Of a stretch of 64,000 bases of DNA, positions 11,243 through 30,700 are shown in pieces. The notes beneath the pieces are model-generated. The model worked only from the letters and a program-made list of their open reading frames with translations, searched no databases and was not told the DNA's origin. This stretch comes from Turritopsis dohrnii (Eukaryota; Cnidaria; Hydrozoa; Anthoathecata; Oceaniidae), in assembly GCA_027922465.2 (NCBI GenBank), contig BQMF02000366.1:124001-188000 (forward strand), in the 5' to 3' direction. Both the position numbers and the translations under genes were made by a program. Positions within the stretch are counted from its first letter, which is position 1; the number at the start of each line of letters is the position of its first letter.

Positions 11243-11250
11243 ATTATATA
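11243..11250. repeat. Left core word ATTATATA (attL-like)
   Basis: The 8-bp word at the left border of unit 1, repeated at 15901-15908 and 20593-20600. Inside it is the arm GCGTATAAAC; outside it is host-like GTTATT. Only one arm is present, as expected for an integrated end. Confidence 0.7.
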
Positions 11251-11774
11251 GCGTATAAACTTATTTTGTTCCTTTGTATAAGTAAATTTGCAAAGCAATG
11301 GAGCATAAACATTTTTATCATTTGCACGTGTTCCTATTTCGTTAGTTCCTTTTGTTATAAAAGGAACAATTTCTGAGGCACTCTTGGGACCTTTAAAGTT
11401 TTTTTCAGATGCACGATGTTTTATAGAATAGAAAAGTCTTTGCAAGACCGATGTTTAATATCCTAAACGGTCTATGTTGTTCTGTATTCTGCTAACTTGC
11501 AATGTATTTGTACGGAAGGCTTTGTTCCGTTATATATGAGACAGAATGTTCCTATTGGTGTAATCATTATAAAAATCATGCAGTCGTGTATAATACAGAA
11601 CACAAGTGGAAAACCCTAAAAACTTTCTGCTGACCACTTTAATTCGGTCTGTCAGTTTCCGCAAGTTTGCAATAAAAGAACAGCTTTTTGATTGGTCGAA
11701 ATTCACACGTTTCCTAATTAAAACATTTGCATAAAAGGGATCGTTCTGATCTTCTGATTCACTACGTGACAGAG

Positions 11775-13501
11775 ATGTTGAAAAGACGCATTTTATCAAA
11801 GAAGATGTGGCAAAAAGCTGTTGGAAATGAAAGGAAACCGAAAAGGTTGTCCTTAAAAACTACTAGCAATGGAGTGTACATATGCCCTGTGAAGTCATGT
11901 GAAAGCGAAGGCTTTAAAACGCAAAGAGGTTGTAGAAAACACGTTTATACAAAGCATGGTTGGTTTTACTTTTTTGACGAGAAACCTGACGTTACCACTA
12001 TATTTCCTGAATTTGCAAACGAGTATCCACTCAAAGTAAACGAAAACGAGGCTGCACTTCTTCAATGCCGATGTTTGTTAAAACATGTACTGTGGGAAAA
12101 CTGTTTTCAAAATGGCTACAAAGTCCAGGTGGAGGAGGTAAAAGTTTGTGTCAAGCGGAACAAATAACAGCCAAACTATTAAAGTATGCGAAATTCTGTT
12201 GCGATGACGTATCTATTCTCTGGGACATACCAGGATGTGTTATAGACTATTGCGTTGGATCGATTACAATGCTTTCTGACTTTGTGGATTACTTGAAGGA
12301 CACTTGGAAACTTGGTCATTCTGGAATTATTGGCTACATGAACGCCATTTCTCACACGCTTGACTTCAGAAGGAGTTATGCAATTAAAAGCGAGAATATA
12401 CCTGTATTCATTGCAGCTGAAATTTACTTAGACAGGGTAAAAAAGTGCTTAGCAAAGCAAATGAGGATTGAATGGAGTACAGTACTGAGCAAGGAATACC
12501 TTGAAACTATCAATTGTTGGGCTAGTCTGGAAGATTTACAAAATGTTATTCCTTTTCATGCCAACAAATTTTCACAGATATTGATTAACGCTAGTGATTC
12601 GAATGCCATCATTCCAGCACACGATTTATCTTTCAGCACTTCGTTTGTTGTAGCTGTACTGTTTCTAATGGTGAAAGCAAGTCGACCAATGACATATCAG
12701 TATTTAACTGTTGCAATGGTACGTGGCGTTGGAAGTGAAGGCGGTGTTATCGATCAAACAAGATTCAAAACAAATTATAAATATGGATTTGATACTCTCA
12801 TTATTTCGAAAAGACTGGTTGATATTTTGAATGGGTATATAGCTTGTATTCGGACTAGACTAAATCCTATTTGCGAGTACGTTTTGGTAACAATAAATGG
12901 AACTCAGCTGAAACAGTTAAGTGATATTTTCGGAAGAATTGTATACCAGGCTATTGGAAAGTATATAAACCCAACAAGATACAGGCAGATTATCGAAACG
13001 GAAAGCATGGGTAAACTGAACGAACGTGAGCAAGCGGCTTTATCACGTGATCAAAAGCATACATCACACGTAGCTAGAATACATTATCAAAAACTTCAAT
13101 CAACCGAAGTAGCTCGTCAGGGTCAACAGTGTATGGAAAAGCTGGTAACCATGGACAAAGAATGTACGAATAACCATCGTTTTAACGATCATTTTACGAT
13201 ATCAACTTCTAACGAACTCGACAGTAATGGAGTGGACCAAAGAAATGAACGAGTGAAATCCTGTCTTAACATTGCTTTAAACGAGAACGTATCCGCTGCA
13301 GCAGAACTAAAAGACAAAGTTATCGAACGACAGAGCAAGGTTGCATTTTCGGCTACGGAAGATTCGTTTTTGTCGTATGGTATAAAGAGATATGGTCATG
13401 GTAAATGGACATCGATTTTACGAGATCCGGAATATAGCTTTCATCCTTCAAGAAAACCGAGCACATTGATGATCAGAGCAAAGAAGTTAAATTTAATTTA
13501 A
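11775..13501 (+). pseudogene. Recombinase-like ORF of unit 1, broken by one base
   Basis: Same gene as 16433-18160: N-terminal C2H2 finger, tyrosine-recombinase-like centre and C-terminal telobox-like Myb. At about 12017-12020 unit 1 reads TTTGCAAACGAG where unit 2 reads TTTGCAACACGAG. That one-base loss shifts the frame after the zinc finger, so the coding sequence continues in a second frame (open about 12065-13501). All recombinase signatures are still present downstream, so the break appears recent or could be a sequencing error. The last 110 or so residues differ strongly from unit 2 except for the Myb domain, which is conserved. Confidence 0.85.
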
Positions 13502-13615
13502 TATATGTATTATGTCTGAAATTTATTTGAAGGTAATGCTTTGCGAAGGGGAGAACATAAAAGGGTTATGTTAGCAAATAGACCTTTCTTTTGAGTAACA
13601 AATTCTTGCACAAAG

Positions 13616-13909
13616 ATGTTCTTCAAGTTTTTCAAAGGCGTTTTAACGAACACTGGTGATATCGTTACAAAATATAAACTGAGTGAAGTAGATGAAAGTT
13701 GGTTGAAGAGCACACTTTCAGCGCGTCAGGTCACAAGACCATTGAAATTTCGAATTGCCGACATTAAAGATAGTAAAGGTCTAATGGCAAAGCTGACTTT
13801 TATAAGAAGAAAACAGAACGACGAGCTACTGCTGCACAAAAACTTAAAATATGTTGTGTTAATAAAAACATGTAAAATGCATGCAAAAGAGAAAAAACTC
13901 AAAATGTAA
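13616..13909 (+). CDS. Small basic protein, second ORF of the element (97 aa, unit 1)
   Basis: An ATG-started ORF 114 bp after the recombinase stop, on the same strand. Its paralogue in unit 2 (18252-18557) has the same length class and keeps MFF-F-K at the start, GDIV-K, GLMAKL or GIMAKL in the middle, LLLHK, and a hydrophobic YVVLIK-type strand before a lysine-rich tail. Retention of the frame and of these blocks while the DNA has diverged argues for selection on the protein. No known domain is recognised. Its place beside a recombinase suggests an accessory factor such as a directionality or DNA-binding partner, but that is inference. It could be expressed from its own start or spliced to the upstream gene. 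Confidence 0.65.
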   Translation: MFFKFFKGVLTNTGDIVTKYKLSEVDESWLKSTLSARQVTRPLKFRIADIKDSKGLMAKLTFIRRKQNDELLLHKNLKYVVLIKTCKMHAKEKKLKM

Positions 13910-14032
13910 AACAACTGCCTCCTCCTTTCCAGCCCCGAAAGATCAACTACACCGGGGAGAAAAGATATCAAATACGTAACTCATTGACTTCATTTGCTAT
14001 AAATAGCACAAAGGGACATCTCACACGCCCAT

Positions 14033-15697
14033 GTCTTGTTACATGGACCTTGTGAATTTGAATGGGCTTGTTACACGTTGAAACAGCTTGTTACATCTAG
14101 TTACATGTTGTCACACCTAGTCACAGGTTTACAAGGAATAAGTTTCATTTCCTACGTCATTTCCTATAGCGTCACATACCCCTTCACATCAGCTGATTTT
14201 TGTTACAGCTTGTTACACCTAGTTACATGTTGTTACAGCTTGCCACAGGTTTACAGGGAATAAAGTTGCTCTTCATACGTCATTCTTCACGACGTCACGT
14301 GCTTCTACATATCAGCCGACATGAATGACGCAACGGCGAGATGACGTAAGTGACCAACTTATTCTTTAGAAACCTGTGACAACGTGTAACTACATGTAAC
14401 TAGATGTAACAAGCTGTAACAAGAACCAGCTGAGAATGGCATGCATGATTTCCCTCACGTCATTTCCCCCTTTGCATCAGCTGATTTTAGTTACAGCTTG
14501 TTACATCTAGTTACATGTTGTCACAGCTTGTCACAGGTTTACAGGGGAAAAGTTAATTTTCATACGTCATTCTTCACGACGTCACATGCTTCTACATATC
14601 AGCTGACATGAACGACGCAGCGACGAGATGACGTAAGTGGCCAACTTATTCTTTAGAAACCTGTGACAACGTGTAACTACATGTAACTAGATGTAACAAG
14701 CTGTAACAAGAACCAGCTGAGAATGGCATGCATGATTTCCCTGACGTCATTTCCCCCTTTGCATCAGCTGATTTTAGTTACAGCTTGTTACATCTAGTTA
14801 CATGTTGTCACAGCTTGTCACAGGTTTACAGGGGAAAAGTTAATTTTCATACGTCATTCTTCAAGACGTCACATGCTTCTACATATCAGCTGACATGAAC
14901 GACGCAGCGAAGAGATGACGTAAGTGGCCAACTTATTCTTTAGAAACCTGTGACAATGTGTAACTACATGTAACTAGATGTAACAAGCTGTAACAAGAAC
15001 CAGCTGAGAATGGCATGCATCATTTCCCTGACGTCATTTCCCCCTTTGCATCAGCTGATTTTAGTTACAGCTTGTTACATCTAGTTACATGTTGTCACAG
15101 CTTGTCACAGGTTTACAGGGGAAAAGTTAATTTTCATACGTCATTCTTCACGACGTCACATGCTTCTACATATCAGCTGACATGAATGACGCAGCGACGA
15201 GATGACGTAAGTGGCCAACTTATTCTTTAGAAACCTGTGACAACGTGTAACTACATGTAACTACATGTAACAAGCTGTAACAAGAATCAGCTGAGAATGG
15301 TATGCATGATTTCCCTGACGTCATTTCCCCCTTCGCATCAGATGATTTTAGTTACAGCTTGTTACATCTTGTTACATGTTGTCACAGCTTGTCGCAGGTT
15401 TACAGGGGAAAAGTTAATCTTCATACGTCATTCTTCACGACGTCACATGCTTCTACATATCAGCTGACATGAATGACGCAGCGACGAGATGACGTAAGTG
15501 GCCAACTTATTCTTTAGAAACCTGTGACAAGGTGTAACTACATGTAACTACATGTAACAAGCTGTAACAAGAATCAGCTGAGAATGGCGTGCGTGATGAG
15601 GACAAAGTAAATGACTTTATGTCTTAACTTATTCCTTGGAAATGTGTGACAACGTGTAACTACATGTAACTAGATGTAACAAGCTGTAACTAGAATC
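14033..15697 (+). repeat. Array of 287-bp repeats with 10-bp-phased motifs, unit 1
   Basis: A monomer of 287 bp recurs exactly (the word TTTGCATCAGCTGATTTTAG at 14471, 14758 and 15045, with a variant at 15332), plus partial monomers at both edges. Each monomer contains five abutting 10-bp motifs (GTTACAGCTT, GTTACATCTA, GTTACATGTT, GTCACAGCTT, GTCACAGGTT). About 110 bp later it contains the inverted set (TGTGACAACG, TGTAACTACA, TGTAACTAGA, TGTAACAAGC, TGTAACAAGA). Between them lie TACGTCA, GACGTCAC and GATGACGTAAG words and CAGCTGA palindromes. It is non-coding; a 75-codon ORF here is a by-product of the repeat. Confidence 0.9.
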
Positions 15698-15772
15698 AGA
15701 TGAGAAATGAATACATGATGGCGACAACGCAGACGACGTAAACCGTTTACTTATTCAAACAAACGCAGGTAC

Positions 15773-15778
15773 AATAAA
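15773..15778 (+). terminator. Polyadenylation signal AATAAA in the unit 1 tail
   Basis: AATAAA within the strongly conserved 200-bp tail, also present at 20465-20470 in unit 2. A reasonable end signal for element transcripts, but unproven. Confidence 0.4.
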
Positions 15779-15878
15779 GTATTTAAAAGAACTTATTAAT
15801 GGTTCATCTCGGAGCAAACGAACAAGTCATGCGGATGTATTTACGTTCGACATTTTACATCTAAATTCTGTATCAAGA

Positions 15879-15930
15879 GGAACAATTTTTTTGTTTTACG
15901 ATTATATAGCGTATAAACTTATTTTGTTCC
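15879..15930. repeat. Palindromic unit junction (attP-like)
   Basis: Where unit 1 meets unit 2, inner arms GTTTTACG (15893-15900) and CGTATAAAC (15910-15918) face each other across the 9-bp spacer ATTATATAG. Outer words GGAACAA (15879-15885) and TTGTTCC (15924-15930) are placed symmetrically about the same centre. Inverted arms around a short spacer are the classic form of a tyrosine-recombinase crossover site. Each outer border of the tandem has only one of the two arm sets. Confidence 0.7.
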
Positions 15931-16432
15931 TTTGTATAAGTAAATTTGCAAAGCAATGGAGCATAAACATTTTTATCATTTGCACGTGTTCCTAATTCGT
16001 TAGTTCCTTTTGTTATAAAAGGAACAATTTCTGAGGCACTCTTGGGACCTTTAAAGTTTTTTTCAGATGCACGATGTTTTATAGAATAGAAAAGTCTTTG
16101 CAAGACCGATGTTTAATATGCTAAACGGTCTATGTTGTTCTGTATTCTGCTAACTTGCAATGTATTTGTACGGAAGGCTTTGTTCCGTTATATATGAGAC
16201 AGAATGTTCCTATTGGTGTAATTATTATAAAAATCATGCAGTCGTGTATAATACAGAACACAAGTGGAAAACCCTAAAAACTTTCTGCTGACCACTTTAA
16301 TTCGGTCTGTCAGTTTCCGCAAGTTTGCAATAAAAGAACAGCTTTTTGATTGGTCGAAATTCACACGTTTCCTAATTAAAACATTTGCATAAAAGGGATC
16401 GTCTTGATCTTCTGATTCACTACGTGACAGAG

Positions 16433-18160
16433 ATGTTGAAAAGACGCATTTTATCAAAGAAGATGTGGCAAAAAGCTGTTGGAAATGAAAGGAAACCGAA
16501 AAGGTTGTCCTTAAAAACTACTAGCAATGGAGTGTACATATGCCCTGTGAAGTCATGTGAAAGCGAAGGCTTTAAAACGCAAAGAGGTTGTAGAAAACAC
16601 GTTTATACAAAGCATGGTTGGTTTTACTTTTTTGACGAGAAACCTGACGTTACCACTATATTTCCTGAATTTGCAACACGAGTATCCACTCAAAGTAAAC
16701 GAAAACGAGGCTGCACTTCTTCAATGCCGATGTTTGTTAAAACATGTACTGTTGGAAAACTGTTTTCAAAGTGGCTACAAAGTCCAGGTGGAGGAGGTAA
16801 AAGTTTGTGTCAAGCGGAACAAGTAACAGCCAAACTATTAAAGTATGCGAAATTCTGTTGCGATGACGTATCTATTCTCTGGGACGTACCAGGATGTGTT
16901 ATAGACTATTGCGTTGGATCGATTACAATGCTTTCTGACTTTGTGGATTACTTGAAGGACACTTGGAAACTTGGTCATTCTGGAATTATTGGCTACATGA
17001 ACGCCATTCCTCACACGCTTGACTTCAGAAGGAGTAATGCAATTAAAAGCGAGAATATACCTGTATTCATTGCAGCTGAAATTTACTTAGACAGGGTAAA
17101 AAAGTGCTTAGCAAAGCAAATGAGGATTGAATGGAGTACAGTACTGAGCAAGGAATACCTTGAAACTATCAATTGTTGGGCTAGTCTGGAAGATTTACAA
17201 AATGTTATTCCTTTTCATGCCGACAAATTTTCACAGATATTGATTAACGCTAGTGATTCGAATGCCATCATTCCAGCACACGATTTATCTTTCAGCACTT
17301 CGTTTGTTGTAGCTGTACTGTTTCTAATGGTGAAAGCAAGTCGACCAATGACATATCAGTATTTGACTGTTGCAATGGTACGTGGTGTTGGAAATGAAGG
17401 CGGTGTTATCGATCAAACACGATTCAAAACAAATTATAAATATGGATTTGTTACACTCATTATTTCGAAAAGAGTTGTTGATATTTTGAATGGGTACATA
17501 GCTTGTATTCGGACTAGACTAAATCCTATTTGCGAGTACGTTTTGGTAACAAAGAATGGAACTCAGCTGAAACAGTTAAGTGATATTTTCGGAAGAATTG
17601 TTTACCAGGCTATTGGAAAGTATATAAATCCGACACGATACAGACAGATTATCGAAACGGAAAGCTTGGGTAAACTGAACGAACGTGACCAAGCGGCTTT
17701 ATCACGTGATCAAAAGCATACCTCCCACGTAGCTCGAATACACTATCAGAAACTTCAGTCAGCCGAAGTAGCACGTCAAGGGCGGCAATGTATGGAAAAG
17801 CTGACAACCATGGACCATGAATTTTCGCAAAACAGTAATTTTAACGAACGTTCTACGACATCAGTATCTATGGAGTTTAGCAAAAATGCACTGAATCAAC
17901 AAAATGAACGAGCAAACTCGGCCTCTGACGTTGCGTCAACCAAAGCATTACTCGTTGCAGACAAGACAACGGAAAGAGCTACCAAGAGGCAGTGCAAAGT
18001 ATCGTTTTCAGCTAATGAAGATTCATTTCTGTCGTACGGTTTGAAGAAATATGGCCCTGGAAAATGGACGGCGATTTTACGAGATCCCGAGTATAGTTTT
18101 CACCCTTCACGAAAACCAAGTACATTGATGATTAGGGCAAAGACAATGAAGCTGATTTGA
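16433..18160 (+). CDS. Tyrosine-recombinase-like protein with C2H2 finger and telobox-like Myb (575 aa)
   Basis: I take the ATG at 16433; the frame is open further upstream but without ATG. Residues about 34-60 hold a C2H2 finger (CPVKSC, then H-x4-H in KHVYTKH). The centre has the marks of a tyrosine recombinase: an Arg in KASRPMT after a hydrophobic helix, a Lys-containing FKTNYKYG strand, INPTRYRQIIETES as the Arg box, and QKHTSHVARIHYQK supplying His and the nucleophile Tyr. The last 50 residues, with YGPGKWTAIL and a terminal basic helix, resemble the Myb domain of telobox (TRF-like) proteins. The ORF is intronless. Family knowledge suggests strand exchange on circular element DNA; the exact family is not certain. 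Unit 1 has a frameshifted copy. Confidence 0.85.
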   Translation: MLKRRILSKKMWQKAVGNERKPKRLSLKTTSNGVYICPVKSCESEGFKTQRGCRKHVYTKHGWFYFFDEKPDVTTIFPEFATRVSTQSKRKRGCTSSMPMFVKTCTVGKLFSKWLQSPGGGGKSLCQAEQVTAKLLKYAKFCCDDVSILWDVPGCVIDYCVGSITMLSDFVDYLKDTWKLGHSGIIGYMNAIPHTLDFRRSNAIKSENIPVFIAAEIYLDRVKKCLAKQMRIEWSTVLSKEYLETINCWASLEDLQNVIPFHADKFSQILINASDSNAIIPAHDLSFSTSFVVAVLFLMVKASRPMTYQYLTVAMVRGVGNEGGVIDQTRFKTNYKYGFVTLIISKRVVDILNGYIACIRTRLNPICEYVLVTKNGTQLKQLSDIFGRIVYQAIGKYINPTRYRQIIETESLGKLNERDQAALSRDQKHTSHVARIHYQKLQSAEVARQGRQCMEKLTTMDHEFSQNSNFNERSTTSVSMEFSKNALNQQNERANSASDVASTKALLVADKTTERATKRQCKVSFSANEDSFLSYGLKKYGPGKWTAILRDPEYSFHPSRKPSTLMIRAKTMKLI

Positions 18161-18251
18161 TTTTCCATCGGTTTCATAACTATTAAACCGTTATAAAAAC
18201 AGTGAAATACAAGAATATATTCCCTTTTGCTTTTGCTGTCAGAGAAGAAAG

Positions 18252-18557
18252 ATGTTCTTTAACTTCAAGAAGTGTTTATATACAGAAAGCGGCGATATAG
18301 TGTCGAAACATCCACTTACAGAACGTGACAAGGACATCGTAAGAGATATACTAAGGACACACAAGATAAAGTCTGGTTCAACATTTAAATTTACCAATAT
18401 GTCGGATCGTACCGGAATAATGGCGAAACTGTTAGTTTTGAGAAAACAAAAATGTCAGAAGCTACTACTACACAAGGACAGTGCATATATTATAATTATT
18501 AAAAGAAACCAGACATCGTGTAAACGAAAATGTATGAATTGGAAAAATATTACATAA
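18252..18557 (+). CDS. Small basic protein, second ORF of the element (101 aa, unit 2)
   Basis: An ATG-started ORF 91 bp after the recombinase stop, preceded by TTTTGCTGTCAG, a plausible splice acceptor. It shares GDIV-K, GIMAKL, LLLHK and the IIIIK strand with its unit 1 paralogue, while roughly half the residues differ. It ends in a Lys/Arg/Cys-rich tail. No known family is recognised. Conservation of the ORF in two diverged units is the main support for its being real. Confidence 0.65.
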   Translation: MFFNFKKCLYTESGDIVSKHPLTERDKDIVRDILRTHKIKSGSTFKFTNMSDRTGIMAKLLVLRKQKCQKLLLHKDSAYIIIIKRNQTSCKRKCMNWKNIT

Positions 18558-18767
18558 ACAAGAATTGTCTTATATGTAACCACACCCTGGCAATACCACA
18601 CCGGTACTTTTAACTACAACTTTTAGTCAATCGTCCCAGTTCTATTTTTCACGTGTACCATATCTAGTGCCAGGTTGTCATACCTTTTCACAATTTTTCA
18701 AGAGATAAAGTTATCATTTACGTCATATTCCATGACGGCATCAGGTACTGCTACAAATAACATGATA

Positions 18768-20380
18768 ACTGTTACATGTAGTTACATCTAGTTACACGTT
18801 GTCACAACTAGTCACAGGTTTACAAGGAATAAGTTTCATTTCCTACGTCATTTCCTATAGCGTCACATACCCCTTCACATCAGCTGATTTTTGTTACAGC
18901 TTGTTACACCTAGTTACATGTTGTCACAGCTTGTCACAGGTTTACAGGGAATAAAGTTCCTCTTCATACGTAATTCTTCACGACGTCACATGCTTCTACA
19001 TATCAGCTGAAATATATGACGCAGCGACGAGATGACGTAAGTGGCCAACTTATTCTCTAGAAACCTGTGACAACGTGTAACTACATGTAACTACATGTAA
19101 CAAGCTGTAACAAGAATCAGCTGAGAATGGTATGCATGATTTCCCTGACGTCACATACCCCTTCACATCAGCTGATTTTAGTTACAGCTTGTTACAGCTA
19201 GTTACATGTTGTCACAGCTTGTCACAGGTTTACAGGGAATAAGTTCCTCTTCATACGTTATTCTTCACGACGTCACATGCTTCTACATATCAGCTGACAT
19301 GAATGACGCAGCGACGAGATGACGTAAGTGGCCAACTTATTCTCTAGAAACCTGTGTCAAGGTGTAACTACATGTAACTACATGTAACAAGCTGTAACAA
19401 GAACCAGCTGAGAATGGTATGCATGATTTCCCTGACGTCACATACCCCTTCACATCAGCTGATTTTAGTTGCAGCTTGTTACACCTAGTTACATGTTGTT
19501 GCAGCTTGTCACAGGTTTACAGGGAATAAGTTCCTCTTCATACGTCATTCTTCACGACGTCACATGCTTCTACATATCAGCTGACATGAATGACGCAGCG
19601 ACGAGATGACGTAAGTGGCCAACTTATTCTCTAGAAACCTGTGACAAGGTGTAACTACATGTAACTACATGTAACAAGCTGTAACAAGAATCAGCTGAGA
19701 ATGGTATGCATGATTTCCCTGACGTCACATACCCCTTCACATCAGCTGATTTTAGTTACAGCTTGTTACACCTAGTTACATGTTGTCACAGCTTGTCACA
19801 GGTTTACAGGGAATAAAGTTGCTCTTCATACGTCATTCTTCACCACGTCACGTGCTTCTACATATCAGCTGACATGAATGACGCAACGGCGAGATGACGT
19901 AAGTGGCCAACTTATTCTTTAGAAACCTGTGACAACGTGTAACTACATGTAACTAGATGTAACAAGCTGTAACAAGAACCAGCAGAGAATGGCATGCATG
20001 ATTTCCCTGACGTCATTCCCCCCTTAACATCAGCTGATTTTAGTTACAGCTTGTTACATCTTGTTACATGTTGTCACAGCTTGTCACAGGTTTACATGGG
20101 AAAAGTTAATCTTCATACGTCATTCTTCACGATGTCACATGCTTCTACATATCAGCTGAAATGAATGACGCAGCGACAAGATGACGTAAGTGACCAACTT
20201 ATTCTTTAGAAACCTGTGACAAGGTGTAACTACATGTAACTAGATGTAACAAGCTGTAACAAGAATCAGCTGAGAATGGTATGCGTGATGACGACAAAGT
20301 AAATGACGTAATATCTTCATTTATTCCTTGGAAATGTGTGACAACGTGTAACTACATGTAGCTAGATGTAACAAGCTGTA
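18768..20380 (+). repeat. Array of 287-bp repeats with 10-bp-phased motifs, unit 2
   Basis: Same monomer as in unit 1, with the CTTCACATCA word at 19161, 19448 and 19735 and a variant at 20023 (287, 287, 288 bp). Each monomer has the inverted pair of five-decamer blocks and the CRE-like TGACGT words. Sequence subtypes differ from unit 1 (CACATACCCCTTCACATCAG rather than CATTTCCCCCTTTGCATCAG) in the first monomers. The final monomers and tail match unit 1 closely. Confidence 0.9.
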
Positions 20381-20464
20381 ACTAGAATCAGATGAGAAAT
20401 GAATACATGATGGCGACAGCGCAGACGACGTAAACCGTTTACTTATTCAAACAAACGCAGGTAC

Positions 20465-20470
20465 AATAAA
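20465..20470 (+). terminator. Polyadenylation signal AATAAA in the unit 2 tail
   Basis: Counterpart of the signal at 15773-15778 in the conserved tail. Functional use is inferred only from position and conservation. Confidence 0.4.
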
Positions 20471-20592
20471 GTATTTCAAAGAACTTATTAATGGTTCATC
20501 TGGGAGCAAACGAACAAGTCATGCGGATGTATTTACGTTCGACATTTTACATCTAAATTCTGTATCAAGAGGAACAATTTTTTTGTGTTACG

Positions 20593-20598
20593 ATTATA

Positions 20599-20600
<2 letters not shown>
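20593..20600. repeat. Right core word ATTATATA (attR-like)
   Basis: Third copy of the 8-bp word, following GTGTTACG and followed directly by TTATTATT. It marks the right border of the tandem element. Confidence 0.7.

Positions 20601-20650
<50 letters not shown>
20594..20650. repeat. (ATT)n microsatellite
   Basis: About 50 bp of uninterrupted ATT units directly at the right border of unit 2. It is probably the host-side remnant of the insertion site, though expansion after insertion is also possible. Confidence 0.9.
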
Positions 20651-20652
<2 letters not shown>

Positions 20653-26431: not shown

Positions 26432-29350
26432 TCAATCTTTGACGACTTGTCGAAATCGAGTTTGTCGGGAGGCTGTTGTTTCGACGAGATTCAGATTGAT
26501 ATCGAACATGGTACCAGCACTTTTCCATAATTTGTCGATTCGACTTTGGAACGTATTGAGTGATGGTGCTTGCACAACGTCTAGTGGCAGGTTATTCCAT
26601 TGTTCTGCAACTCGATTTTGAAATGAATATTTTTTAACGTCTTTAAGACACTTTTGTCGGGTAATCGTGAATTCGTGACGACGTAAATTGTGTTTTTGAC
26701 TATCCTGAGATCGAAAGCGAAGAAAATTTCCAATAGCTTCTTTGTCATAAAGGTCATGGGTGATCTTATACATCTCGATCATGTCGCCCCTATATCGACG
26801 ATACTGCAGAGATGGAAGGTTCATGATCTCCAATCTTTCCTTGTAGCTAAGGTTTTTCATTCCAGGTATCAATTTTGTTGCGCGACGTTGTACATCTTCG
26901 AGATGAGAGATCTGTCGTTGCAGGTGAGGGTTCCACACGGGAGCACCATATTCGAGGTGGGGGCGTACAATACTTGTGAACAGTAGCTTGAAACAATCCT
27001 TATCTAGGTAGGCAAACGTTCGCCGTAACATACCAACAAGAGCATTAGCTTTTTTCACTTTTTCGTTAATGTGTTTTTCAAATGAAAGATGCTCATCGAA
27101 ATTTATGCCTAGGTCATTCACATCTGATTTTTGCATGAGGACAGTGCCATCCATTACGTACTGTGTTGCGCCAGGATACTTCAACTTTGACTTTATTTTC
27201 ATGTGTTCACATTTTTCCGGATGGAATTTCAATAAGAAGGTATCTGTCCAAAGCAGTAATTTGTTTAGATCGCTTTGTAGGTTAGCAATCATCGGCATAC
27301 AGAAAACGTTCTGACTCATCAACAGTTTCAGCTATAGTGTTTATGAAGATAACAAAAAGCAATGGACCTAGGACCGATCCTTGGGGCACTCCTGACGTTA
27401 CGGGAAATACATCGGATTTGTTTTGATTTACACAAAAACTTGTTGATATCGATCAGACAGAAAATCTCTGATCCAAGAGAGAACTGCACCTTGTAGTCCA
27501 TAGTGACGCAAGACTTCAATTAGTCGACAATGGGGAACAGTATCAAACGCTTTTTTAAAATCAAAATATATGATATCAATCACACCTCCATTTTCAAGAA
27601 TTTCTGTCCATTTATCTATAATTTGGAGCAGTTGCAGAGTAGTTGATCTTCCACCAAGAAAACCGAATTGGCGATTTGACAAAAGTTTATTGGCTTTGAG
27701 ATATGGTAGCAAAGAATTACGCATTATTGATTCGAAAATTTTTGATGATATGCTAGTCAGGCTAATTGGTCTGTAATTTCCAGCAGAATTTTTGTCACCT
27801 TTTTTCTTATAGATGGCTGTGATGTTAGCTCTCTTCCAAGCAGATGGGACTTTCCCCATGGTGTAAGATTGTTCGAATATGATGTGAAGTGGTTCAGCAA
27901 TCACGGTCGCTAGTTCTTTTAATACACGTGGATGTAGGCCGTCCGGACCAGGACTTTTGCTGGGATTCAATTTCTCTATTTTTTTCAAAACCATTCCTTG
28001 TGTCATCTCCAGTTGAAAGTCACTTTCAATTATTGGTTTCTTCAGGCCGTCAAGTGCAACAGGTACCGTTGGTTCATCTATATAGACGCTGGAAAAGAAT
28101 TCACACAGAACATTTGCTTTCTCTTGGTCAGTTTCTGCCATTTTTTTGGAATTTTCATTCATAAGTAGGTCTAGAATTGACGATTTAATCTTAGTTTTTG
28201 CATTCACATATGCCCAAAAGGCTTTACTGTTTGTCTTTGTAGATCTAGCAATTTCTTTCACATAATCTCTTTTCGCTTTGCGTGTCAACTTGCGTACTTG
28301 ATTTCGAGATACACGTCCGCATCCTTGCTATCTATAAACCTTTTCCATAGCCGGTATTTCTTTTTAGCCATCGTCTTTTTATTGAGGGGATACCTGAACA
28401 CTCTTTTCCCAGTCTTTATTGCTCTTGTTGGTATACATATTACTTCGGCTTCCTTATACGTTGCCTCAAATTTGTTCCATAGCTTGCCAATATCATCTCC
28501 GCAGTCTTTAAAATGTTCTGCCCAATTAATGTCAAGAATTTTTTTCATTCTTTCAAAGTCGGCTTTGTTAAAATCACAAACAACTTTAGATGGAAGCTTT
28601 TCAGGTTGATGTTGGTAGTTCAATTTAAGCAGTTCGTGATCGGATTTGCCAAGAGGTAAAGCGTATTTGATTTCTTTCACATATTGATCACCAGTCGTAA
28701 ATACAAGGTCTAATAGTGAAGGGTCGTCCGATCCTCGTCCTCTTGTTGGTTGATTCACATGTTGTGTCAGAAAACTATCTTTAACTGCACCAATAAAGTC
28801 ATGGTCTTGGCTGCTGGTAGATGTTAGTGTCTCCCAATTAATATCCCTTCGATTAAAGTCACGGACAACAACTATGTGGTCGTATTTTTTCATACCAGGA
28901 ATTGCTCGAAAAAACTGGTTAATCTGGTCGTTTTCTTCAGTGCTACTATATGGGCTACGGTACACAACAGCAAGCAGCATGATTTCGTGGTTTTGAAGAC
29001 GAATTTCTGTCAGTAGCAATTATTTCAATTCTTTTGCTGTTTTATCAGAATGGATGATTTCTCTATTTTCTTGTACGATATCGATTTCCTGACGTAAAGT
29101 GCAATCCCTCTTGTCATATCTTGATTATTCAGATGTTCAAATTCCACAGAGTAAGTATTCAAAATGTAGTCAACTTCCGTCAGCTGGCGTTTATAGTTCT
29201 TCGGCTTTAGTTCTGTTATTGCAACAATATCTGGTGGTGTATCGGATTCTATTTCCATCTTTAATTCTTCCAATTTATCTTGTGTTAGTGTATCAGCGTT
29301 TGTGTACCAAATATGCATAAATAAATTGTTTATTGTAGACTTTACTTTCT
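26432..29350 (-). pseudogene. LINE ORF2: AP-endonuclease and reverse transcriptase, frameshifted
   Basis: Endonuclease marks on the minus strand are IVAITELKPKN, VVVRDFNRRDINW (the usual G of GDFN is R here), SLLDLVFTTGD and LGKSDHELL (about 29300-28620). The RT follows from 28288 with SKSPGPDGLHPRVLKELA, NYRPISLTSISSK, NRQFGFLGGRST and [23 protein letters not shown] and the FLYADD active site are still visible near 27300-27400, but in another frame and followed by a stop. The C-terminal part (27322-26432) is open again, with RRTFAYLDKDCFKLLF and PHLEYGAPVWNP. At least three frame breaks mean it cannot make ORF2 protein. Confidence 0.85.
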
Positions 29351-29389
29351 TTGCTGCAATATTTATTCCGTTATTTTCTTCTCTTTGAC

Positions 29390-30630
29390 TTATTGCACGG
29401 CTACTACCGGCGCTTTCTTCAGTAACTTTATCAATCTTAGGCCGTTTTTTAAATTGCCTCTGACTTTCCAAACGTGAGAAGAATCGGATGGCTCATCGTT
29501 GTTTTTTAATTTAGCTTTATCAGACCATCTCCGTATCATGTCTCTTTCTGCTATTGTATAGTCTTCAGTAACGCTTATACTCCTGTATGCTTCATTACCC
29601 TTTAAGCTCGTCAGATTATCCAATACTTTTTGTTTGTCCTCAGAACTCTGCATAACGACTTTGATCGGCCTCACTTTTCCACTTACCTTACCTTAAGGCG
29701 TGCAACTGACTTGAATTGAACAGCAACACGGACCGTATCAATAAACTCATTGAAAAATGCCCTGTCAAGTTCTCTTGTCTTTTTTTCGTCAAAGTCAAAG
29801 TTTTCTTGTACCCCAAGGATAATTAAACTATTTGCGCGCAGCTTTTTCTGTCGTTCCTCTTCTAGCTCTTCGTTTTTTGCTTCTGTTATTAGTACCTGAA
29901 TAGTTGTATTGGTAGCTGCTGAAATATTTGTGGGATATGCAGTGGCACATCCAACAACATCAGCATAAGTAGACTTTTTTTCTACGGCCATGTCGAATTT
30001 TTCTTCCAGATTGCGAATGTTTTCCAGAACTTTACGTAACAAAGTTGATTCGAACTCTTCGAACTTTCTTTCAAGAGTATGCAATATGCCGTTACTTTCA
30101 ACAAAACTACCTTCTCGGATCATCTTCTTTCTTAGGGCTTCAATTTCACTCACCATGTTAGCTTCTTTCTTTTCATGTTCCGTGATCTGCTGTTCGCTTT
30201 TCTTGATTTCATTCTTCAGCTTTGCTATTGTTTCTTTATGTGTTTTAAGGACGCTGACTTCCTCTTTCATGATGTTGCAGTATTCATTCTGTTTATCTCG
30301 TAAAGCTTTGTTGATTGTTTTGGTTTTACTGTTTTCCAACGAAATATCCTTTAGTGCTTGCGTAAGTTCTTCAACTTCAAAGGACTGATCAGGGTCATAG
30401 TCCTCCATCTCTTTGAGGAAATTCGGACGAATATTGACACAGTTCGCACACGTGTACTTGCGGCCCTTCTTGGTTATAAAGATTTCCAATTGATACAGTG
30501 GCAATCTGGTACACCTATAATGTACAGTTCGCTTGCATTCGCCACATGTCAGGTGATTTTCGTCTCCATTATTTGTACATTCACTTTGTGTACATTTTTT
30601 TAAGTCTTCGTTGCTGTTGTTGTTTTCCAT
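29390..30630 (-). pseudogene. LINE ORF1: PHD-like finger plus coiled coil, frameshifted
   Basis: I take the minus-strand ATG at 30630. Residues about 10-60 form a PHD-like Cys/His finger (CTQSEC, CGECKRTVHYRC, CANC). A long charged coiled coil follows (about residues 90-210). The frame breaks near 29680 and continues to 29390 with the ORF1 C-terminal block ending HVWKVRGNLKNGLRLI. ORF1 proteins bind element RNA; a PHD finger in ORF1 is known from some CR1-group elements. Confidence 0.75.
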
Positions 30631-30700
30631 TTTCGCAGTTTTCCAAAACTGCAAAAATCGAAGACTTCTGCGATTGTTTCAGTCTGTAGGACGTCAACTT

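Follow-up and report, generated by a model that had tools for sequence, protein, structure and literature searches.

A Crypton-like tyrosine-recombinase element in Turritopsis dohrnii, found head to tail on a common TTATATA core

The tandem and its recombinase

The window analysed here is a stretch of 64,000 nucleotides of the hydrozoan Turritopsis dohrnii (G000:C366:124001-188000; assembly of 436 Mb in 891 contigs), and it carries two units of a tyrosine-recombinase element that lie head to tail in direct orientation and measure 4658 and 4692 bp (Table 1). The word ATTATATA stands at 11243, 15901 and 20593, i.e., at the left end, the junction and the right end of the tandem, so that the layout given in the first-pass annotation has been borne out by a check of the sequence. 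This 8-mer occurs eight times on the plus strand of the window and is by itself weak evidence. The junction offers more, as positions 15877-15933 read symmetrically as GGAACAA...TTTTACG-ATTATATAG-CGTATAAAC...TTGTTCC around a middle, ATTATATAG, of 9 bp, with outer arms of 15 bp in a repeat search and an arm alignment score that was equalled by 9 of 2000 shuffles. The joined outer ends of the two units together form one symmetric arm-core-arm site.

The larger gene of the units encodes the recombinase. The mobility of unit 2 that the first-pass annotation considered is at most a possibility, as its recombinase frame is open over 575 codons but differs at one column where the related sequences hardly vary. 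Tyrosine recombinases make up 33 of the 37 best VIA-align rows against its AlphaFold model (pLDDT 82.6, pTM 0.54), matching at residues 102-469, and Foldseek alone has returned Cre at E 0.0031 and nothing at E 0.001; a Pfam scan has given no catalytic integrase match. Residues R304, K332, R402, H429 and Y438, which we take to be catalytic from the general scheme of tyrosine recombinases, are invariant across 41 aligned sequences, and H or N sits three residues ahead of R402 in the alignment rows shown. The modelled protein is folded like a tyrosine recombinase and lacks none of the catalytic residues. Near the N-terminus, a C2H2-like set has been recognised in C37, C42 and H56 (invariant in the 41 sequences) and H61 (nearly so), and both structure comparison and a profile search have matched residues 521-574 to the TRF1/TRF2 Myb domain. 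Homologues number 707 at E 0.001, and the best relative with a named organism, which is also the only organism named among the best 120 of the 707, is Hydractinia symbiolongicarpus (54%).

The two units have been found to be alike at both ends, with 94% identity over the first 2.24 kb (99.2% over the first 1.45 kb) and 94% over the last 1.8 kb. Between 13485-14089 and 18144-18780, the stretch that holds a second open reading frame (ORF2), blastn has shown no collinear match but only scattered matches of repeat boxes, and the ORF2 proteins of the two units share 35% identity. The earlier view of a tandem of one element thus holds for the direct units and the common core but not in the sense of near-copies throughout, and a simple duplication is ruled out by the differing mid-unit DNA and ORF2. 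Unit 2 is closer to copies elsewhere, being 98-99% identical over its first 2.8-3.1 kb with those on C10, C42 and C6. ORF2 exists in four types in the genome, with a common start and a conserved pattern, and the copies on C42 and C6 contain two different ORF2 genes in tandem (L003 1127-1944, L004 1090-1942), first one of the unit-2 type, which is shortened on C6, then one of the unit-1 type.

The family, its junctions and its empty sites

A search of the genome for the unit ends, proposed in the first-pass annotation, has given at least 85 left ends (three mismatches allowed) and at least 189 right ends (one mismatch allowed), with 0 matches in either reversed-pattern control; these are minimum counts, the left pattern having required TATA and the right pattern TT after ACGR. 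Because the junction is a symmetric site and the ends recur in such numbers against none in the controls, the tandem is considered real. From 889 first-look candidates, 76 recombinase matches have been scored, 53 of them free of stops (51 full length) and 23 with stops. Identities over the first 1.45 kb have been tabulated for 39 left ends found at four mismatches, some of which therefore lie outside the 85; 36 of these copies have a partner at 97-100% identity, two reach 73-74% and one 92.5%. The family is young.

Most left junctions keep the core, TTA preceding TATA in 56 of 57 solo left ends, although the search pattern favours such ends. No left end with the core of the target has been seen among the 85, where a pattern that includes TATA and allows three mismatches would miss many. 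For the right side, 40 flanks have been taken with the TT-after-ACGR pattern and chosen mostly as outer ends, which gives too low a count of tandems (three); C329 and C114, found by a way other than this pattern, are excluded from the 37 solo ends that remain. TTATATA follows 21 of the 37 and other bases follow 16, which refines the earlier reading in that the right side has either the element's core or other bases. A TTA tract is missing from two of the 21 (L119, L147), of which L147 may be an eroded tandem.

The C329 copy lies in a dispersed repeat with 15 places that match over the joined flanks, and all seven of those read have GTTTT[AG]AATCA. The closest empty site is ACATATGTTTTAAATCA, the filled one ACATATGT-TTATATAGCG ... 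CGA-TTTAAATCA, and between the two no base has been duplicated or lost, with the exchange lying within TT. For C90, seven places match across the insertion and both of those read agree with the C329 pattern. Longer duplications or terminal inverted repeats in other copies, named earlier as what would speak against a circular element, have not turned up at C329 and C90, whose empty sites are without target-site duplication; a terminal-inverted-repeat transposon that duplicates its target is ruled out by these sites. C209 fits less simply, since six of six paralogous sites read TTATCAT and the filled right side reads TTATATA, which suggests that the TTATATA on the right has been put in place by the element. 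The right sides of C329 and C90 retain the bases of the target, and the mixture of right-junction bases could come from heteroduplex repair or from repeated entry and exit. In the genome there are 41 occurrences of TTATATATTRTTATTATT and 63 of its reversed control; right ends of the family account for at least 17 of the 41, judged on the 100 of 189 right ends listed.

The targets are biased to microsatellites. A TTA-type tract lies within 45 bp of 31 of the 37 solo right ends, compared with 66 of 7194 background windows (0.9%); it has been found beside 9 of 57 solo left ends, or 16 of 57 if the TTA that belongs to the core is counted, under a narrower motif and range. As the tract is mostly on one side, insertion is oriented. 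Some copies (C329, C114, C65) lie outside TTA-type microsatellites, and several left flanks resemble, by eye, the 3' ends of retroelements. Integration at a shared core, as first proposed, is upheld, with the refinement that the match to the target is as little as TT and not the whole 8-bp word, with a TTA-type tract usually on the right. The repeat that flanks the window's tract on the right starts with a like tract in four other places too. At one further locus (L171, C816:72600-73130) the right end is shortened and joined straight to the (TTA)n tract of this same flanking repeat.

Stacking on resident copies

All 85 left ends have been read upstream, and 28 of them meet, at the core, the right end of a different unit (two substitutions allowed in the right-end pattern), with 11 distinct 14-bp right-end sequences. 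C30 contributes five of the 28 junctions, one of which has an additional base ahead of the core, and C57 contributes two; C57 is an array of three in which each right end is joined to the next left end. On C10, a unit 99% like unit 2 is joined to one that matches at 80%. On C94, two units are separated by a short TTA tract, and the second therefore seems to have used this same microsatellite, not the core, as its entry site.

One locus of the assembly is found with one unit and with two. C343 reads unit1-GTGTTACGA-TTATATA-TTGTTATT, and C860 reads unit1-GTGTTACGA-TTATATA-GCG-unit2-TTATACGA-TTATATA-TTGTTATT. Upstream, the two agree at 99.7% over 1027 bp and at 99.4% over 471 bp, with about 470 bp between that are found only in C343; downstream, 599 of the 600 bp directly beyond the microsatellite agree, and farther out there are divergence and shifted repeats. 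The two versions of unit 1 share 98.95% identity over 4286 columns, differ in length by 132 bp and both retain the right end proper to unit 1. A whole heterologous unit has been gained or lost exactly between two cores at this allele-like pair, which represents either two haplotypes or a recent duplication. The idea that a second element enters at an existing end is in line with this pair and with the structure of the 28 left ends.

Rival accounts have to be set beside such stacking. A single inserted element multiplied by unequal crossing-over or segmental duplication, with no site-specific recombination, would account for the homogeneous arrays, i.e., five left ends in direct order close to the end of contig C30 (1563711-1586522; 99.9-100% identical over 1.45 kb) and two C9 units (100% over the same length), and for the high identity of the window's units over their first 1.45 kb; the C30 array may have been amplified in some other way or may stem from the assembly. 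This account is nevertheless improbable, as it is contradicted for the window by the missing collinear match and the dissimilar ORF2s, for C10 by the 80% partner and for C860 by an extra unit with a foreign right end beside a unit 1 that keeps its own; a simple unequal exchange between unlike units should have given a hybrid, unlike C860. A multimeric or co-integrated circle that entered once, bringing several units together, also yields core-unit-core-unit-core and suits those arrays that are homogeneous, but it is rather less probable still, given that neighbours can differ in lineage and that C343 and C860 fit a single unit gained or lost at an occupied site. An artefact of assembly may be thought of since C860 is a contig of just 58 kb and repeats that are almost identical can readily be joined in error; it is very improbable, as the junction recurs on many contigs (28 of 85 left ends, 11 right-end sequences), and unlike units joined at the same base are hard to obtain by collapse or duplication of one repeat.

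We favour, at a probability of roughly 0.85, a Crypton-type tyrosine-recombinase DNA transposon that likely moves as circles via TTATATA and its inverted arms and likely stacks on resident ends. Confidence is high in the site-specific integration and the stacking of the family on its own ends; integration with resident copies as targets is well supported by the core junctions, the unlike neighbours, the locus with one and two units and the empty sites. A free circle, read from the junctions only, is the likely intermediate, and the encoded recombinase likely does the joining. It is predicted to bind the inverted arms GGAACAA..ACG and CGT..TTGTTCC and to exchange strands at the TT within TTATATA, which would leave no target-site duplication. 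The circle would insert at TTA repeats or at ends of the element's own relatives, the new left junction keeping the element's TTATATA and the right junction showing the core of the target or of the element. Head-to-tail stacking probably arises when an incoming copy takes the end of a resident one as its target. Our guess is that the Myb domain helps to find the (TTA)n tract and that ORF2 is an accessory factor.

Table 1. Features of the tandem and of the rest of the window (positions in the window)
Feature	Positions	Strand	Basis or remark
Unit 1 (TTATATAGCG...TTTTACGA)	11244..15901	+	core; 85 left / 189 right ends in genome
Unit 2 (TTATATAGCG...GTGTTACGA)	15902..20593	+	ends set as for unit 1
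Core TTATATA, left end	11244..11250	+	sequence; TTA before TATA at 56/57 non-tandem left ends
Core TTATATA, unit 1/unit 2 junction	15902..15908	+	sequence; like junction at 28/85 left ends
Core TTATATA, right end, then (TTA)n	20594..20600	+	sequence; TTATATA at 21/37 non-tandem right ends
(ATT)n tract, right flank of tandem	20593..20651	+	repeat search
Left arm, composite recombination site	15877..15900	+	inverted to 15910-15933
Right arm, composite recombination site	15910..15933	-	inverted to 15877-15900
Unit 1 recombinase gene, frame change	11775..13501	+	frame list; frames 11727-12167 and 12065-13501
Unit 2 recombinase ORF, 575 aa	16433..18160	+	C2H2-like finger, tyrosine recombinase, TRF-type Myb
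Unit 1 ORF2, 97 aa	13616..13909	+	frame list, comparison of ORF2 types
Unit 2 ORF2, 101 aa	18252..18557	+	frame list, comparison of ORF2 types
Unit 1 repeat block	14179..15597		287-bp period, 4.9 copies, TGTAAC/GTTACA boxes 10 bp apart
Unit 2 repeat block	18861..20289		287-bp period, 5.0 copies, same TGTAAC/GTTACA boxes
Non-LTR (long terminal repeat) retrotransposon-like stretch	26432..30654	-	several frames, one with reverse transcriptase domain PF00078
Unrelated ORF, 562 aa	36247..37935	-	by eye like another tyrosine recombinase (GLGHHQEV...Y); no Pfam integrase match at E 0.1
Sulfotransferase frame, 289 aa	50663..51532	+	PF00685, E 5e-41

Class of the element and its significance

In its working the element is Crypton-like, with a recombinase, no reverse transcriptase in the units, a short common core and empty sites that, where read, show no duplication of the target. 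It shares with Cryptons a tyrosine recombinase, seen in the R-H-R-Y columns (R304, R402, H429, Y438) and the fold, and short direct repeats at its ends, i.e., TTATATA at left ends and at the 21 solo right ends. Retrotransposons of the DIRS, Ngaro or PAT type, or an element that derives from one and depends on it for movement, deserve mention because such retrotransposons too have tyrosine recombinases and occur in cnidarians, as the excerpt of PMC4157794 states. They carry a reverse transcriptase within the element, and the frame list of the two units contains none, nor another transposase, only the recombinase frame and ORF2 standing out; the window's reverse transcriptase frame belongs to a separate stretch at 26-31 kb. 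A retrotransposon has been rejected on this ground and is most improbable.

The closest match is CryptonV, to which the element is likened by description and not by sequence kinship. The excerpted text of PMC8869645 describes CryptonV as DNA transposons encoding tyrosine recombinases, reported from cnidarians, and some of its families as inserting specifically in microsatellites, citing the Repbase report on cnidarian CryptonV (Kapitonov and Jurka 2012); the element resembles them in its preference for TTA-type tracts (31/37 solo right ends vs 66/7194 background windows), and its best protein relative with a named organism is from Hydractinia. CryptonA and CryptonI are likewise animal DNA transposons with a tyrosine recombinase and without reverse transcriptase, but animal Cryptons are given in the excerpt of PMC3212892 as having no C-terminal domain and no terminal repeats, whereas a Myb domain at the C-terminus, inverted arms and a repeated core are all present in the element. 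CryptonF shares a DNA-binding domain C-terminal to the recombinase and short direct repeats as presumed substrate, and differs in having GCR1_C and mostly 6-bp repeats instead of a TRF-type Myb and a 7-bp core (PMC3212892, same excerpt). Movement of Cryptons as circles has been proposed there by analogy with prokaryotic elements.

The TGTAAC/GTTACA boxes within the 287-bp repeats are spaced at 10 bp, about one per helical turn, and might, as a guess, be accessory binding sites. The copies on C95 have only short pieces in common with the repeat block, some of them 169 bp apart.

Conjugative transposons of the Tn916/Tn1549 type and phage integrases insert through a site of joined ends with little homology to the target, and tandem integration at att sites is possible. 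The element is like them in site-specific insertion via a joined-end site and differs in that they are prokaryotic. Tn1549 and phage integrases are among the structural matches to the recombinase model; a family sequence profile against the PDB has returned no Tn916/Tn1549-type or phage integrase at E 1. It is a tentative thought, rather doubtful as a whole, that own copies are the preferred targets, that mixed arrays shuffle 3' modules, that the TRF-like Myb reads TTA repeats at the tails of retroelements and that ORF2 steers the reaction like a prokaryotic directionality factor.

The kind of element is known, and the evidence for its mechanism is unusually direct. The family is young and has many open reading frames, and its defined site, empty sites and locus with one and two units make the circle model directly testable. 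Its insertion preference makes clusters of the transposon itself, a route to mixed tandem arrays and to exchange of modules.
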